Shown piece after piece: positions 13,773-29,311 of a DNA stretch of 31,004 nucleotides (its first letter is position 1; each line of letters begins with the position of its first letter). The notes under the pieces were generated by a model, which saw nothing but the letters and a program-made list of their open reading frames with translations, was not told where the DNA came from and made no database searches. This DNA comes from a virus: positions 1 to 31,004 of the IMG/VR virus record IMGVR_UViG_3300022744_000016, one strand, 5' to 3'. The position numbers and the translations under genes were made by a program.

Positions 13773-14183
13773 GTGCCAATTCTAACCATTTACTATGCAG
13801 CCGTATAGGCCATTCTTGCCTTTAGTGATGCAATTTTGCAATCGGTTCTACGAACGCGACCGTGTTTTCTACTTGAGATCTGCTTGGGATCTCTTTGTTC
13901 TGGCGGCTCTTCCGTCATCCCCTGGCGGCTCTTCCGTCATCCCCTACTGTAAATTCCGATAGGGTGACTGAGTATGAACCTACAAAAATCATGTGTGATT
14001 TACATCAGGGTAGTATGACAGCTCATGCTTCAGCATAAATCACTGACGACGCGATACCTGGACAGGGATCGCCCCTACGCGACAACGAATTTTAAGACCA
14101 GGTGGATGATTTTAAGACCATGTGGCGGCCCGCCATGCTTCGCGTGATATCCAGCCATATAAGCGTACATATCCCAAAAACGC
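13773..14183. promoter_or_regulatory. Palindrome-rich late control region
   Basis: No gene is supported here. Visible elements are TGCAATTTTGCA at 13,829-13,840; a GAGATC/GATCTC stem at 13,875-13,893; a tandem 22-bp repeat at 13,901-13,944; AAATCATGTGTGATTT at 13,986-14,001; ATGCT-TC-AGCAT at 14,025-14,036; and two copies of ATTTTAAGACCA followed by GTGG (14,089-14,105 and 14,109-14,125), 20 bp apart. This lies between the terminator of the leftward control operon and the first late gene, so it should hold the late promoter and its operators. No convincing -35/-10 pair was found. Confidence 0.55.
13901..13944. repeat. Tandem 22-bp direct repeat
   Basis: Two perfect adjacent copies (13,901-13,922 and 13,923-13,944) of a 22-bp unit starting TGGCGGCTCTTCCG and ending TCATCCCC. 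Two helical turns apart, they could be cooperative activator or repressor sites for the late operon. Function is unknown. Confidence 0.9.
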
Positions 14184-14245: not shown

Positions 14246-15244
14246 TCAGGGGCTTATACGCCGCAACTCATCCATCCGATCCAGCTCTACGGATACAGAT
14301 TCGAGTGTGCGAAGGCCGATATCCAGGGAGACACGACCGGCAAGAGCATCATGCCCGACCTCGATGTCCTGGCCCAGACGCAACCGGAGCATGCCCCCAG
14401 CACCATTATCACTGCTGACATCGATGGCTGACACACGGGCGCTGAGGCCGGGCAGCATCTCCCTGATCTGGGCAGCCAGGCCCGCCGTTGCCTCATCTTC
14501 TACTGGATGAGAAGGCGCGTCGGAACTAATTTTATGCCAGTAGTAATCCATGAGCATGAAGCTACGTGGTTGCGCAGTACGGATCACGTATTGCGCGGCC
14601 ATACGCACATTTTCTTCGCCATGCTGGTCGATCATTTTCTCGGCCAGTGCAACCTCCCGTCGCCCGGCAGGTGACGTGGAGCCGATGGCGGCATGGAAAT
14701 CCATCACCAGTTGATGAGCCAGGGACGTTTCAGGTGCGGAAATGGGGGCGGCCTTTTGGACTTGGGCATGGGCCTCGGCCGAGGCCTCGGCCGAGGCCTG
14801 GGGAGCATGGCGCTCCCGTACCCGACGCCAGGCGCGACACTCCACCTGCTCTGCCTGCCCCCATTCCAAGCGTAGCCTCTCAATTTCAGCCTTCTCCTCA
14901 TCGGAACAAAGAGAGGGGGGCGTCAAGAGGCGATACCCATTAGCCGCAAGAAATGGCCGCCCGCCTGCGGAAATCGCAATGCTACGGGCATCCACCCGGT
15001 TGCGTTTGAGTAGCAGGTTGTTGGCAACCAGCACCTTAATGCCTTCGATCACGGTGCTTGGATGCAAATTACAGAGATCAGCAAGATCACTGTAAGAGTA
15101 ATAGCCCTGCCGACAGCCATTTTTTTGATGCAGGGCAAAATGGAGGCGATCATAGAGAGTCTGCTGGGCAGCGGTCAAATTCCGAATTTCCGGCGCGGTC
15201 AACCTTGCCGCTGGAATCAATAGGAATCCGCTGCCTTTGCTCAT
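14246..15244 (-). CDS. Winged-helix DNA-binding protein, possible replication initiator
   Basis: A 332-aa protein. The N-terminal ~110 residues look like a winged helix (LYDRLHFALHQ, then SYSDLADLCNLHPSTVIEGI and VLVANNLLLKRNRVD), a fold used by plasmid and phage initiators and DnaD-like loaders. The middle has a low-complexity Ala/Glu linker (ASAEASAEAHAQ) encoded by a short tandem repeat. The C-terminal part contains LVMDFHAAIGSTSPAGRREV and EENVRMAAQYVIRTA, helical and unassigned. It is the last gene of a leftward operon with an HTH regulator. An initiator role is inferred because no other replication gene is visible; it could also be a regulator. Confidence 0.65.
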   Translation of the reverse strand: MSKGSGFLLIPAARLTAPEIRNLTAAQQTLYDRLHFALHQKNGCRQGYYSYSDLADLCNLHPSTVIEGIKVLVANNLLLKRNRVDARSIAISAGGRPFLAANGYRLLTPPSLCSDEEKAEIERLRLEWGQAEQVECRAWRRVRERHAPQASAEASAEAHAQVQKAAPISAPETSLAHQLVMDFHAAIGSTSPAGRREVALAEKMIDQHGEENVRMAAQYVIRTAQPRSFMLMDYYWHKISSDAPSHPVEDEATAGLAAQIREMLPGLSARVSAIDVSSDNGAGGMLRLRLGQDIEVGHDALAGRVSLDIGLRTLESVSVELDRMDELRRISP

Positions 15245-16601: not shown

Positions 16602-16613
16602 TCGGGCCCCTTC
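16592..16613. terminator. Stem-loop at convergent gene ends
   Basis: GAAGGGG (16,592-16,598) pairs with CCCCTTC (16,607-16,613) around an 8-nt loop. It spans the ends of the rightward repressor-like gene and the leftward toxin gene. There is no T-tract on either strand, so it is only a weak terminator candidate. Confidence 0.4.
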
Positions 16614-16920
16614 AGCGCCCCATCCAGTAGGTCTGGCTTCGGCTGGTGTGGGCAATGGCGACCACCTGAAGCACATCGCCTCGAATGCGGTAGATCACCA
16701 CATAGCGAAACCGCCGTACCAGCATACGACGATGTTCTTCGGACAATTTGCGGTGAGGGACGGGGGCCCCTATGAAGGGCGCACGCAGTAGACCTCGAAC
16801 CGCCAGATCGACGGCATCGACCAACTCTTCCCCCAGTCCAACCCGGTCGTCATTGAGCCAGTCTACGGCCTGCGCAAGTTCTTCAAATGCTTCGGGCAGG
16901 ATCTCAAGCTGCACGCGCAC
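16612..16920 (-). CDS. parE: ParE/RelE-superfamily toxin
   Basis: A 102-aa protein with ParE-like features: an N-terminal helix pair (PEAFEELAQAVDWLNDDRVG), then PFIGAPVPHRKLS, then RRMLVRRFRYVVIYRI and the terminal AIAHTSRSQTYWMGR, the 'h..R.p.yW..R' ending of the family. ParE toxins target gyrase and RelE toxins cut mRNA; the fold alone does not decide. GTG 16,920 is chosen as start, overlapping the antitoxin by 17 nt. Placed inside the immunity region, it probably stabilises the prophage or excludes other phages. Confidence 0.82.
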   Translation of the reverse strand: MRVQLEILPEAFEELAQAVDWLNDDRVGLGEELVDAVDLAVRGLLRAPFIGAPVPHRKLSEEHRRMLVRRFRYVVIYRIRGDVLQVVAIAHTSRSQTYWMGR

Positions 16921-17173
16921 TCCGTACCCGCTGGCGGAGGTGTTGCATGGCTTGGTCCCATGGGATGGCCTGGGTCTGGCCACGTTCTAGACGATCTTCA
17001 CGGCGTGCAATCTCTTCCATCCATGCCTCCTCAAGTTCAGGTGTGGCAAAGGAGGTACTACCAGCCACTTCTCGGAGTGCGTCGCCGATCAGTTCTTCCA
17101 GAGGTACGCCCTCAGCCGCCGCGCGGGCCGTCAGGGCAACTTCGAGATCAGGGGGGAGAGGAATGGTTGTCAT
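16904..17173 (-). CDS. Antitoxin of the ParDE-like pair
   Basis: An 89-aa protein directly upstream of the toxin. The N-terminus (IPLPPDLEVALTARAAAEGV, then PLEELIGDALREV) looks like a ribbon-helix-helix dimer with a 'pl..li..al' second helix. The C-terminus is charged and probably flexible (WMEEIARREDRLERGQ, then HLRQRVRSARAA), as expected for the toxin-binding part. It would neutralise the toxin and autoregulate; a CCCCA/TGGGG palindrome at 17,186-17,201 is a candidate operator. Confidence 0.78.
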   Translation of the reverse strand: MTTIPLPPDLEVALTARAAAEGVPLEELIGDALREVAGSTSFATPELEEAWMEEIARREDRLERGQTQAIPWDQAMQHLRQRVRSARAA

Positions 17174-20359: not shown

Positions 20360-20804
20360 ACCATTTCAAACTGCTGACGGGGCGCGCGGTTTTATTTGTA
20401 CCCGTGGCCGGAAACCTCGCAAGAAATGCGCGTGTGGCAGGGTGGCAACCCTACTTTGTGACGGTCCAATCTTGATCGGCACCTGTGATGCTCCGATGTG
20501 CGCGCGCTGCGCGGTCACGGTTGGAGATGATCTTCATCACTGCCCTAAGTGCGCCCGGTCGGCCCCCATCCAGGTGCCCATCCAGGCCCATCCGTCGCAG
20601 GCCCCGGCCCACAGGCCCCCGGCCTGGGAGGTCGAGGCCATGGAGCATGACAGCCGCCTGGATGGAGCGGGGATTCGAGATGGGTGGCCGATGCCTTGGA
20701 GGGTTTTACCGGCGACTCAGTTGCCATCCGATTTTCTCATGCAACTGGCCCAGGCCCTCAATGAACAACGCAATCACCTTACTGGAGGCCATCATGGAGG
20801 ATGA
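20349..20804 (+). CDS. Phage zinc-binding protein (Cys/His-rich)
   Basis: A 151-aa protein whose first 60 residues match a pattern common in temperate-phage early regions: FICTRGRKPRKKCACGRVAT, LLCDGPILIGTCDAPMCARC and VGDDLHHCPKC. This gives about eight Cys plus His for two zinc sites. The remainder has a His/Pro/Ala-rich linker and a C-terminal helix. ATG 20,349 overlaps the upstream gene by 11 nt. A 39-codon alternative frame at 20,356-20,475 begins with a GTGA overlap and is considered less likely. Confidence 0.72.
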   Translation: MGCEPFQTADGARGFICTRGRKPRKKCACGRVATLLCDGPILIGTCDAPMCARCAVTVGDDLHHCPKCARSAPIQVPIQAHPSQAPAHRPPAWEVEAMEHDSRLDGAGIRDGWPMPWRVLPATQLPSDFLMQLAQALNEQRNHLTGGHHGG

Positions 20805-20979
20805 AGGATTCCGGGCCCTTGTCGCGGAGATGAGGTCCGCCCAGCGCGCATACCACGCCGCCAGCAAGACCGAGAAGTCGGACCTGCTCAAGAGGGCGCT
20901 GGCCCTGGAAAGCCGGGTGGATGGGGTGTTGGCGACCTGGAATAGCCGCCAACAGCCGCTATTTGGTGGACGGAAATGA
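20794..20979 (+). CDS. Small helical early protein
   Basis: A 61-aa, charged helical protein (MEDEGFRALVAEMRSAQRAY, then DLLKRALALESRVDGVLATW) ending RQQPLFGGRK. ATG 20,794 is favoured over 20,761 because GGAGG lies six bases upstream. It overlaps the preceding gene by 11 nt. Many phages carry a similar 'l..lv..Mr.aQ..yf......' protein in the early region, function unknown. Confidence 0.62.
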   Translation: MEDEGFRALVAEMRSAQRAYHAASKTEKSDLLKRALALESRVDGVLATWNSRQQPLFGGRK

Positions 20980-21716
20980 GGTCAACTACGGTAAAAATAT
21001 CTTTTCCGCGTCCTTTCCGTGGCCTTTCCGCGCCCTTTCCGCGTCCTTTCCGTGGCCTTTCCGCGCCCTTTCCGTGTCCTTTCCGTGGCCTTTTCCGTGG
21101 GCGGAAAAGGACGCGAAAAGGCCGGGACAATGTAGCCGCGAAGCGCGAATCCTTTTCCGTCCTTTTTGTTCACGCGGAAAGGGCGGAAAGGGAAAAAATC
21201 ACTTGCAATGAGAAATTATCATGCAAGAATGCTGGAATGATGCTGACTACAACGACTAACGGGCCCTATGGCCTGGGGCCGAAGGCGTGCCTGGGCTCTG
21301 TGGGGCTGAACGGATGGAAATTGGTCGCCGTTTGGTGGCCAGTGGGCCAGGAATTTGCAGTTTGCGGGGTAGAGTTCGGGTCAAGGATGGTCAAAGCATC
21401 CTTTTCGTCAAAAGCAGAAGCCTTTTCGTCATCCTTTTCTTTCCTTTTCTCGGCTTCGTACCGTCTACTATTTTCCTTTTTTTTATCCTTTTCTCGGCAT
21501 TCGTCCGTGGACGAAAAGGATGCGAAAAGGATTTTTGTGAAAAGCTATGGTTGTCCCATCCTTGCTTCAAATCAAAAAGCCGATGGAAAAAAGAAAAGGA
21601 TTGGACGAGAGGAAACCAGTTGCAACCTGAAATTATCAGGTAATAGTACAAACATGAGATCGACGGAATCAAGGCGTGCATTGCCACAGGCACGTCTGGG
21701 GGGGGCGTATGTCTAA
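20976..21716 (+). CDS. Uncertain ORF running through the repeat clusters
   Basis: A 246-codon frame starts with an ATGA overlap at 20,976 and ends 8 nt inside the excisionase-like gene, so its ends fit the operon. Its sequence is mostly a translation of DNA repeats: an 11-residue period (PRPFRGLSAPF) from the 33-bp super-unit, later Ser/Phe runs. Only GLNGWKLVAVWWPVGQEFAV, near residues 111-130, looks protein-like; a start at ATG 21,237 would give 159 aa. The DNA repeats may be the real feature and the frame only open by composition. Confidence 0.3.
   Translation: MRSTTVKISFPRPFRGLSAPFPRPFRGLSAPFPCPFRGLFRGRKRTRKGRDNVAAKRESFSVLFVHAERAEREKITCNEKLSCKNAGMMLTTTTNGPYGLGPKACLGSVGLNGWKLVAVWWPVGQEFAVCGVEFGSRMVKASFSSKAEAFSSSFSFLFSASYRLLFSFFLSFSRHSSVDEKDAKRIFVKSYGCPILASNQKADGKKKRIGREETSCNLKLSGNSTNMRSTESRRALPQARLGGAYV
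21003..21110. repeat. Iteron-like cluster A: eight 11-bp units plus hairpin
   Basis: Eight consecutive 11-bp units of TTTCCGYGNCC fill 21,003-21,090. Their third variable bases cycle so that a 33-bp super-period is visible. They run into CCTTTTCCG-TGGG-CGGAAAAGG (21,089-21,110), a perfect 9-bp stem. Further related boxes lie at 21,151-21,162 and, inverted, at 21,173-21,192. The spacing of one helical turn puts every box on one face of the DNA, as in replication-origin iterons or nucleoprotein-complex sites. Confidence 0.85.
21202..21227. repeat. AT-rich palindromic element, copy 1
   Basis: An inverted repeat with arms CTTGCA and TGCAAG around ATGAGAAATTATCA, at the end of cluster A. The block TTGCAA followed by GAAATTATCA recurs at the end of cluster B, so each cluster finishes with the same AT-rich element. 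It could be the unwinding element of an origin or an operator. Confidence 0.7.
21400..21530. repeat. Iteron-like cluster B: phased CCTTTTC boxes with inverted copies
   Basis: CCTTTTC boxes start at 21,400, 21,421, 21,433, 21,443, a related run at 21,475, and 21,487; inverted GAAAAGG copies are at 21,513 and 21,524. Spacings of 21, 12, 10, 32, 12 and 11 bp are all close to whole helical turns. ATCCTTTTC (21,485-21,493) and GAAAAGGAT (21,523-21,531) flank a CGTCC-GT-GGACG inner stem, making a nested palindrome. The boxes resemble those of cluster A (CCTTTYCG). Confidence 0.78.
21624..21646. repeat. AT-rich palindromic element, copy 2
   Basis: TTGCAA followed by CCTGA-AATTA-TCAGG, a 5-bp-stem palindrome, ending cluster B. 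It shares TTGCAA and GAAATTATCA with the element at 21,202-21,227. It lies about 65 bp before the excisionase-like gene, so a regulatory role for that gene is also possible. Confidence 0.65.
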
Positions 21717-22125
21717 GGCACAACATCAACATCAACCGATGCCTTGGGTGGAGACCGCCGACGTGCGGGCACATCTGGGCATCTGCGCTCAGCTTTTACG
21801 AGCAATGATGGTAGACACACCCGCCGCTGGCCTGGCTGCCCCCTGGATGGATTTGGGCATCGGCAAGCGCAAATGTTTTAGATGGCGATTGGAAGAAGTG
21901 GACCATTGGGCAAGGGAGATTTACAAATGGCGAGCATCGAAAAGGCACCAAATGGAAAGGGATATCGCGTCAGATGGCGCGATATGTCGGGCAAACAGTG
22001 TTGCAGGCATTGCCCCGACCACGACACAGCAAAAAAGCTCAGGCTCAAAGTCGAGTCGTCCATTGCCCTCGGACAAGACTGGAATCCGGCAGATCCTACG
22101 CCTACCACTCCCACGCTCGAAGTGA
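21709..22125 (+). CDS. Excisionase-like HTH protein
   Basis: A 138-aa frame. The first ~75 residues look like an excisionase/MerR-type winged helix: WVETADVRAHLGICAQLLRA, then APWMDLGIGKRKCFRWRLEE and VDHWAREIYKW. It lies directly before the integrase, as xis genes often do. Its last ~65 codons run out of frame over the integrase start and yield a Ser/Lys/Arg-rich tail that looks like a by-product of the overlap, which is unusually long at 199 nt. The protein probably steers integrase toward excision and may repress nearby promoters. Confidence 0.68.
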   Translation: MSKAQHQHQPMPWVETADVRAHLGICAQLLRAMMVDTPAAGLAAPWMDLGIGKRKCFRWRLEEVDHWAREIYKWRASKRHQMERDIASDGAICRANSVAGIAPTTTQQKSSGSKSSRPLPSDKTGIRQILRLPLPRSK

Positions 22126-23237
22126 TCTGCCAGTCTTACCTGGATGATCAGGTCAGAGTGTTGTCACCCAGAACGCTGGAGGGGCGCCATTTCGTGCTCA
22201 ATCAGTTTTTGACGTGGCTTCAGGATCGTTTTGGTGAGAATATCGATACGAAAAGGATTTCTCGCCAACTGATGGCCGATTTTTATGCTTGGCTGACCAG
22301 TGTTCGTGAGTGCTCTGCCCTGACCGCAGGCCAACGTGTGCGCAATATAGAATCATTGTGGCGATGGGCTTGTGATCACGATGATTATGAGCCTCATATG
22401 CCCCGTTACAAAAAGCTTGTACTTGCGCCCACGCAGCCCAAATTACGCCCGATTGCTCCAACCTGGGCACAGATGGATGCCGTAGTAGAGTCAACATATG
22501 GGTGGTACCACCCTTTTTTCACAATGTTGCGCTACACGGGACTACGCAAGAGCCAGGTCATGCGCCTCCAGTGGGACGATGTGGATATGGAGGCTGGTAC
22601 ATTGTATATCAGGCCAGAATTGGGCAAAAGCCGACGAGAAAAGCATGGTAGGACAGTCCCATTGTCTCCCCATTTGCTCAAAGAGATGGCCGGTTGGGGT
22701 AAACGCCAAGGGTGGCTGGTGCCCTGTGCCCGTGCAAACCGCCTCCCCGACGCGGAAAAATCCAAGAGGATTTGGAGCCGGGCCGGAATCATCCACCCCG
22801 ACATTCTCAGGCAACCGCACCACGCCTTTCGTAAGGGGCTGGTGTCTGGGTTACGGGCGATGCGAGCCGATAAAGACGCAATAAAATATCTTGTTGGGCA
22901 TGACCTCGATGTCATGGGGGAAGTGTACAGCGACCCCAGTTTTGCATTGGCCCTTCGAGAAACGGTGGCCATGATCCCAGCCATCGGTGCATCTGGGGTG
23001 ATGGACCTCTCGGGCCTGCTGACGGCCCCGCCCATCTCCAAACTGACGGCTGATGATGTACGGGAGATCCGGAAGCGGGTGGGCCAGGAGAGCCGGATGG
23101 CGCTGGCCTTGGCCTATGGGGTGTCAGTGACCACCATTAGCCAGATCGTGCTGCGCAAGACCTGGAAAGACCTGGATGGGGAGGTGTGTACGCCAAGTGT
23201 ACTTGGACTAGACCCCTCCCAAAAGGCTGTTGGATGA
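21927..23237 (+). CDS. int: Tyrosine recombinase (phage integrase) with extra C-terminal HTH
   Basis: A 436-aa integrase. Residues 1-55 form an arm-binding-like start (KGYRVRWRDMSGKQ). The SAM-like core-binding domain spans about 62-160. The catalytic domain has Arg207 (TGLRKSQV), a beta-hairpin Lys near 234, HAFR (His299, Arg302), GHDLDVMGEVY with His325 and the nucleophile Tyr334. Residues ~371-415 (KLTADDVREIRKRVGQ, then YGVSVTTISQIVLRKTW) add a second DNA-binding HTH, which usual integrases lack. ATG 21,927 follows AAGGGAG. It inserts and removes the phage at attP/attB. Confidence 0.92.
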   Translation: MASIEKAPNGKGYRVRWRDMSGKQCCRHCPDHDTAKKLRLKVESSIALGQDWNPADPTPTTPTLEVICQSYLDDQVRVLSPRTLEGRHFVLNQFLTWLQDRFGENIDTKRISRQLMADFYAWLTSVRECSALTAGQRVRNIESLWRWACDHDDYEPHMPRYKKLVLAPTQPKLRPIAPTWAQMDAVVESTYGWYHPFFTMLRYTGLRKSQVMRLQWDDVDMEAGTLYIRPELGKSRREKHGRTVPLSPHLLKEMAGWGKRQGWLVPCARANRLPDAEKSKRIWSRAGIIHPDILRQPHHAFRKGLVSGLRAMRADKDAIKYLVGHDLDVMGEVYSDPSFALALRETVAMIPAIGASGVMDLSGLLTAPPISKLTADDVREIRKRVGQESRMALALAYGVSVTTISQIVLRKTWKDLDGEVCTPSVLGLDPSQKAVG

Positions 23238-23377
23238 TGGGAGTTTTAAATCAACTGGGATCCTCTTTACCCCAACAGGTGACCATCCACTTTCAGATGC
23301 ACCTCGAATGCCTAAAAACAAGGAGCCACGCCAAAAAGCGAAAGACGCATAGAATCGTAGAGGGGCGCACGAAATAG
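23237..23377 (+). CDS. Possible 46-aa basic protein after integrase
   Basis: A frame starting at ATG 23,237, overlapping the integrase stop (TGATG), and ending at 23,377. The C-terminal half is basic (RSHAKKRKTHRIVEGRTK). Only the start coupling supports it. Confidence 0.28.
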   Translation: MGVLNQLGSSLPQQVTIHFQMHLECLKTRSHAKKRKTHRIVEGRTK

Positions 23378-23791
23378 CCTCCCAGCGTCGTGCTGTGTAC
23401 GCTGTGTGTACTGGTGTGGATCCGGCGTCGTGAGTGATAGCCTATTCGATTCACGGCAGGAGAAGCACCACGCAGCACAGGCCATGGCATCGTAAGCCGC
23501 CTGCAATTGTAAAAATATCATCATACATGCTCAGTAAAGCAGAGATGATTGCTCAAAGACTGACCTGGTCTCTTTCAAGCTCTTTCAAAAGCGGCGCTCG
23601 TCGGTCCATTGGCCGTCACCCATAGATGGCGCCGGCGGACAATCTGTGCAGAAAATATTTTCAGGCGCATGGGGCCCTTGCACCAGCATCCAAAAACAAA
23701 CGCACTCACTTGCGATGTTATCCTCCAGAATCGACGATAGCGATACCGGCAAGGGGTAGGCATAGGCCGTGCTGAAATAGCGATTAGTCGG
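23378..23791. other. Non-coding region beside integrase; expected attP
   Basis: No convincing gene. It lies between the integrase module and the convergent end of the late operon, the usual place for attP. Visible are clustered CTGTGT/TGTGTA motifs (23,391-23,412), a CTCTTTCAA direct repeat (23,570-23,578 and 23,580-23,588), and a weak terminator candidate for the late operon: a CGCA/TGCG stem at about 23,701-23,714 followed on the minus strand by TTTGTTTTT. No tRNA-like 3' end was found, so the core site cannot be named. Confidence 0.45.
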
Positions 23792-28811: not shown

Positions 28812-29308
28812 CAGTGCCCTCCCCAAAACCCCAGATGGGGGGTATGGTGACCATGGAGGTTTTTATGATTTTCCTGCTTCTCCTTGCGTGCTCCAACACC
28901 CCCCAAGAATCCGCTCCAATTACCGCCAACGACACCACCCCAGCCCCCCAAGATACAGACAAGGATCGCCTTGATTGCGATGGTGATGGTGATGGGTTTT
29001 GCGCTTCTGAAGACTGTGATGATACCAACCCCAACGTGAATACTCATGCGCCAGAAGTATGCAATGGTATAGATGATAACTGTAATGGTCCGGCAGACGA
29101 TGGTGTTCTGCCAGTTTGGAATGAGGATGCCGATGGTGATGGGTATGGTAATGCCCTCCACTATCGCGAAGAATGCACGGCCCCACGTGGGTATATAGAG
29201 AATGGAACTGATTGCGATGACGCGAATGATACCATCTACCCAGGAGCCGATGAGGTCTGTAATTTGCTGGATGATGACTGCGATGGTCAGTCCGATGAGA
29301 ATTGCCAT
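28811..29308 (-). CDS. Antisense ORF opposite the lipoprotein, possible overlapping membrane protein
   Basis: A 165-codon frame, codon-aligned antisense to the lipoprotein. It starts TAATG with the distal tail gene, has GGGAGG eight bases upstream, and ends TGATG with the hub gene, so it exactly fills the operon gap. The product is very hydrophobic (ILIGLTIAVIIQQITDL, TITVIIYTIAYFW, ITITIAIKAILVCILGG). Antisense of Asp/Gly/Asn codons gives Ile/Thr/Val and few stops, so openness and hydrophobicity are expected by chance. The neat ends keep it in question. Confidence 0.25.
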   Translation of the reverse strand: MAILIGLTIAVIIQQITDLIGSWVDGIIRVIAISSILYIPTWGRAFFAIVEGITIPITIGILIPNWQNTIVCRTITVIIYTIAYFWRMSIHVGVGIITVFRSAKPITITIAIKAILVCILGGWGGVVGGNWSGFLGGVGARKEKQENHKNLHGHHTPHLGFWGGH

Positions 29309-29311
29309 TAG
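28865..29311 (+). CDS. MopE-like lipoprotein with putative metal-binding repeats (moron)
   Basis: A 148-aa protein on the strand opposite the tail operon. MIFLLLLACSNT is a very short lipoprotein signal with the lipidated Cys at residue 10. After a Thr/Pro linker come two MopE-type Asp/Cys repeats: DCDGDGDGFCASEDCDD to EVCNGIDDNCNGPADDG, then DADGDGYG to DCDDANDTIYPGADEVC and LLDDDCDGQSDENC. These D.DGDG loops bind Ca or other metals in related proteins. ATG 28,865 has a perfect GGAGG five bases upstream. It may be displayed on the lysogen's envelope, for example for superinfection exclusion, an inference. Its stop overlaps the opposite gene's stop. Confidence 0.85.
   Translation: MIFLLLLACSNTPQESAPITANDTTPAPQDTDKDRLDCDGDGDGFCASEDCDDTNPNVNTHAPEVCNGIDDNCNGPADDGVLPVWNEDADGDGYGNALHYREECTAPRGYIENGTDCDDANDTIYPGADEVCNLLDDDCDGQSDENCH

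Follow-up and report, generated by a model that had tools for sequence, protein, structure and literature searches.

What is the role of the repeated DNA that lies in front of the integration genes of this virus? The stretch we analysed, 31,004 nucleotides of a virus record and referred to below as the window, carries two clusters of short repeats, A and B, both located between a small gene that ends at 20979 and an excisionase-like (xis-like) gene that starts at 21709. The preliminary description saw in them a candidate replication origin or a novel nucleoprotein site. We consider it more probable that the arrays serve as docking tracks for a small protein of excision control than that they form a replication origin. 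The record has a terminal direct repeat of 127 bp, which fits a circular assembly. Comparison of the window DNA with a phage collection gave no DNA relatives and distant protein matches only, and Rfam produced no match at the gathering score.

Organization of the repeat clusters

The forward boxes of cluster A (21001..21097, plus strand) follow the pattern CCTTTCCGYG, eight of them in addition to CTTTTCCG at 21001. Read as CCTTTYC, the eight boxes are found at 21012, 21023, 21034, 21045, 21056, 21067, 21078 and 21089, every step being 11 bp. Self-matching within the cluster reaches 98% at a period of 33 bp (3 x 11) and 85% at 11 bp, and the units are not all identical. The eight exact 11-bp units with a 9-bp-stem hairpin reported previously are thus correct as to step and hairpin, but not as to exactness. 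The hairpin, which we call the hinge, is the inverted repeat CCTTTTCCG-TGGG-CGGAAAAGG at 21089..21110, and the surrounding 21074-21125 folds as RNA with z = -2.9. It is followed by inverted GAAAAGG boxes at 21104 and 21115, 11 bp apart (21104..21121, minus strand), and by outlying boxes (21151..21191), namely CCTTTTC at 21151 and inverted GGAAAGG at 21176 and 21185. Altogether, cluster A holds 13 boxes against 0.5 expected, a count reached in none of 1000 dinucleotide shuffles of the region.

Cluster B is a degenerate paralogue of cluster A. Its forward boxes (21400..21493, plus strand) are CCTTTTC at 21400, 21421, 21433, 21443 and 21487, with steps of 21, 12, 10 and 44 bp; a degenerate CCTTTTT at 21475 divides the last step into 32 + 12. 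The hinge CGTCCGTGGACG at 21502..21513 is paralogous to the cluster A hinge TCCGTGGGCGGA, and inverted GAAAAGG boxes are present three times, at 21513, 21524 and 21593 (21513..21599, minus strand). Spacing of CCTTTTC in whole helical turns (10, 12, 21 and 32 bp) together with inverted copies had been claimed for this cluster, and both are confirmed. The box count is 8 against 0.26 expected, and again 0 of 1000 dinucleotide shuffles of the region reach it. Paralogy between A and B extends beyond the boxes, with a 1-nt indel between the clusters. Both hinges fold as hairpins, and both clusters keep the same order of C-rich boxes, hinge, inverted boxes and then TTGCAANNNGAAATTATCA.

Each cluster ends in the same AT-rich palindrome, as had been noticed before: CACTTGCAATGAGAAATTATCATGCAA at 21200..21226 in A and CAGTTGCAACCTGAAATTATCAGGTAA at 21617..21643 in B (both plus strand, 21/27 positions identical). 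There are exactly two occurrences of the TTGCANNNNGAAATTATCA-type motif, at 21203 and 21620, against none expected, and the GC content of the palindromes is 0.33-0.37 versus 0.57 in cluster A. A third, degenerate copy, CAGTTGCCATCCGATTTTCTCATGCAA, lies at 20718..20744 (plus strand), probably inside the end of a small gene. It agrees with 18 of 22 consensus positions, a score that 1 of 200 Markov-resampled genomes attained. The matches listed in a palindrome pattern search of IMG/VR were taken as chance, without one-by-one inspection.

Coding potential of the region

An open frame of 246 codons (20976-21716), missed in the preliminary description, spans the whole region. It takes up the interval between the two genes and overlaps both of them at start and stop codons, upstream through ATGA and at xis by 8 bp; in this frame, the DNA between A and B has a slightly coding score. 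Even so, translation of the frame as a gene is highly improbable in our view. Its codon score as a whole is -0.06 per codon, below every one of 29 reference genes (0.03 to 0.35), and the 1-nt indel between the paralogous clusters changes the frame. For these two reasons we treat the region as non-coding. The repeats are real, helically phased and non-coding.

Integration module and attachment site

The xis-like gene (21709..22125, plus strand) codes for a small predicted winged-helix protein, with a weak PHROG excisionase match (E=0.0047). The AF2 model of its residues 1-80 has the order b-a-a-b-b-a at pLDDT 88.9, and among the PDB fold matches listed the highest probability, 0.66, belongs to the putative excisionase 2kvv (TM 0.51, E-value not significant). 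HTH_17 is found in 5 of 11 aligned proteins, the protein of the window itself being without it. Next follows the gene of a tyrosine integrase, int (21927..23237, plus strand; Pfam Phage_integrase, E=3.7e-13), whose relatives form our comparison set. Those from Myxococcota genomes reach up to 46% identity, while in IMG/VR 12 loci were found and 11 used; scanning IMG/VR again with a broader integrase alignment added no new locus. Single-protein scans of IMG/VR with integrase, terminase and portal returned no relative, and no terminase relatives were found in 57 genomes. The host group was guessed from another gene, at 28847-29311 (plus strand), for a small Asp- and Cys-rich lipoprotein-like protein with relatives mainly in Myxococcota and other environmental bacteria.

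The attachment site is predicted downstream of int. In the IMG/VR relatives, a core flanked by two arm-site pairs was recognised there by eye, and the window shares this layout: its predicted attP (23185..23411) contains GTGTAC pairs at 23186/23197 and 23395/23406, with 11 bp within each pair and 209 bp between pairs. Of 20 genome loci scanned, about half had a predicted tRNA or tmRNA gene, in several cases no more than a few hundred bases past int. In the bacterial genomes G152 and G219, the second arm pair is about 33 and 31 kb away, respectively, and the two ends share a core. The corresponding integrative islands (G152:C56, 32.3-65.6 kb, and G219:C175, 74.9-106.2 kb; L291-L294) have att core repeats at both ends and arm pairs, and hold restriction-, helicase- and ATPase-like genes. 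An attP inside the clusters was rejected, since the relatives place att downstream of int; the clusters must therefore be something else.

We searched the P arms with lag counts and with the box matrix, the latter at chain lengths from 3 to 5. The outcome is modest, it follows trials of several regions and measures, and the ranks are uncorrected. With this reservation, P arms are 10-bp-phased in G219, L251 and L253 (ranks 0.000, 0.014 and 0.008) and marginally in L250 and L259 (0.057 and 0.049). The P arm matches the matrix of its own array modestly in G152 (top 1-4% of bins) and G219 (top 3-10%), and TTCCG is common to the P-arm boxes of L251 and L253 and to cluster A. The attP of the window shows no phased boxes and no enrichment for the cluster-box matrix (ranks 0.17-0.25).

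Similar arrays in related integration modules

Arrays built along the same general lines are found with xis-int in bacterial islands and in another phage. The comparison comprised 28 int relatives from IMG/VR contigs and Myxococcota genomes, each with no less than 900 bp of upstream sequence. Upstream of int we tried in turn a lag score, 6-mer density, chains of the same 6-mer, self-similarity at lags 10 and 11, and finally a background-ranked version of the latter, in which 66-bp self-similarity at both lags is ranked against 112 background segments. Regions, measures and windows were picked after viewing the sequences, and the ranks are uncorrected. On this measure our window, L235, L239, L245 and L232 exceed all 112 background segments, and L236 has a rank p of 0.018; L231, borderline at 0.062, was left out of the count. 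Thus 5 of 28 relatives (L235, L239, L245, L232 and L236), all from bacterial genomes, have an array phased at 10 bp that exceeds the background or comes close to its top. L240 and L249 have CCGC boxes with periods of 10.75 and 11 bp, which were recognised by eye first and measured afterwards; the ranked measure misses L240, L247 and L249, and the 6-mer scan did not flag L249. In the rest of these 28 relatives nothing clear was seen, except for weak traces noticed by eye in L233 and L247. Three stretches returned by a four-box pattern search were apparently unrelated on reading.

Box sequence and exact step vary among the arrays, while the order of C-rich boxes, hinge and inverted boxes is mostly kept; the exception is L232, where simple box centroids do not separate. 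In G152 and G219, hardly any CTCCGC arrays with 10-bp steps occur outside the neighbourhood of int. On the L239 contig, a further CTCCGC array lies about 6.8 kb upstream of int (about -6838). Several islands have a repressor gene and gene X between array and xis, and the window has neither at this place. With L240 and L249 outside this comparison, no common gene beyond xis and int was recognised at the array loci. Beyond the array in G152, G219 and G234, gene starts resemble restriction, helicase and ATPase genes, judged by reading ORF translations.

Possible function of the arrays

Of the general descriptions given earlier, a nucleoprotein site proves to be the best, and an integration-control complex is the best-fitting of the alternatives listed with it. 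We propose that each cluster is an operator array that controls xis-int and serves a winged-helix recombination directionality factor (RDF, or excisionase), most likely the 21709 protein itself; this tentative proposal falls a little short of an even chance. RDFs described in the literature bind with strong cooperativity to direct repeats spaced by one turn, in the case of Apl both at att and at a remote promoter region (PMC7498355); RdfS binds at about one monomer per 10 bp (PMC11963761). By analogy with Apl of phage 186 on its direct repeats outside att, we infer that the 21709 protein would bind one monomer per helix turn and spread head-to-tail from each side of the hinge. The resulting filament would bend the DNA and tune transcription into xis-int, and the amount of excisionase could thereby become self-limiting. 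The AT-rich palindromes that follow the arrays might then act as promoter or operator elements of the following transcripts, which is the weakest step of the model.

The repeats about one helix turn apart (11 bp in A; 10, 12, 21 and 32 bp in B) agree with an RDF array, as does the small predicted winged-helix protein in the same module, although its matches to known excisionases are weak and its fold match is not significant. The proposal is also favoured by similar phased arrays at several xis-int relatives and by 10-bp-phased P arms in several of them, with the modest matrix match in G152 and G219. L236 and L245 remain phased despite having lost the C-over-G bias, which favours a double-stranded DNA site and a DNA-binding protein over an RNA signal. 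On the other hand, no array is seen in many relatives that have this module. The island arrays stand beyond the repressor gene, at 1.7-2.1 kb from int and away from the xis promoter. The main weakness is the attP of the window, which has no matching boxes; similar boxes at the own attP are seen, weakly, in G152 and G219. We therefore say of the clusters that they would work like an RDF operator array, not that they belong to this class.

Among known systems, the closest likeness is to the Apl operators of coliphage 186 and the P2-like Cox boxes, in which short boxes about one turn apart, at att and away from it, serve a small HTH excisionase (PMC7498355). Phage 186 has seven plus five direct operators, whereas the window has at least 8 boxes, an inverted half, a hinge and two paralogous copies, with none seen at attP. 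In the RDF literature read, the known operators are direct repeats and inverted halves round a hinge are not described, a point against the proposal. The proposed system also resembles RdfS of ICEMlSymR7A, an oligomeric winged-helix RDF that binds over its own promoter and at attP (PMC11963761); no consensus box is apparent for RdfS, in contrast to the window boxes, which are strongly conserved within the array.

The headline of the preliminary description, an iteron origin bound by the winged-helix protein encoded at 14246-15244, we find very unlikely. Phased repeats followed by AT-rich palindromes are indeed shared with iteron origins of plasmids and phages, where they would represent iterons beside a melting element, and the protein has an O-like match, albeit a weak one. 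Unlike in such origins, no initiator gene is adjacent: the O-like gene is 6 kb away, and xis-int stand beside the array instead. When the repeats were compared with relatives, as had been recommended, arrays did recur, but beside xis-int, and no O-like gene was noticed in the island parts read. (Relatives of the O-like protein were not found in 379 Myxococcota genomes either; this empty result proves little.) The recommended check of GC skew likewise speaks against an origin, as the sign does not change across the clusters, and the changes near 17.5-18 kb and 24 kb track gene direction. Moreover, the O-like gene has a palindrome of its own in mid-gene, a perfect GC-rich one of 28 bp at 14771-14798, which is a possible alternative origin element. 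Beside the same gene, apparently non-coding DNA contains AT-rich 17-bp direct repeats 20 bp apart (14089-14125) and a 22-bp tandem duplication (13900-13943).

A bidirectional transcription insulator, in which a Rho-type C-rich tract followed by a hairpin would shield the integration module from early or cargo transcription, is an unlikely explanation, yet one that accounts for the position of the arrays, which separate the integration module from cargo or early genes. It would also account for the folding of the hinges, and for the int-sense strand being among the most C-over-G stretches of its own locus in 7 of 9 arrays (rank at most 0.03). Against it stand the phasing that persists in L236 and L245 where the bias is gone, the G positions retained in the boxes, and an intrinsic-terminator pattern scan that found 1 site versus 1.7 expected. 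Plasmid partition sites can be 11-bp iterons as well. Still, a partition (centromere-like) or packaging site appears extremely improbable: Pfam scans of about 30 window proteins gave no match to a partition NTPase, and some 8 kb separate the region from the terminase genes. The protein scans covered about 30 reading frames of the window, so the absence of replication and partition genes is incomplete. The same window encodes a ParE-type toxin and an addiction-module antitoxin (PF05016, PF09720) at 16612-16983 and 16904-17173, both on the minus strand.

Returning to the RDF operator arrays, we may extend the proposal to a transmissible cis element. Two opposed, phased operator half-arrays round a hinge would travel with one xis-int family in Myxococcota phages and defence islands, mark the border between cargo and integration module, and enable remote sensing or gating of excision by the excisionase. 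This extension is speculative and rather unlikely. If it is true, then Apl/Cox-type regulation extends to an uncharacterised integration module common to phages and Myxococcota defence islands, and phased boxes, arm pairs and att cores would provide a sequence handle for finding such islands and testing what triggers their excision.
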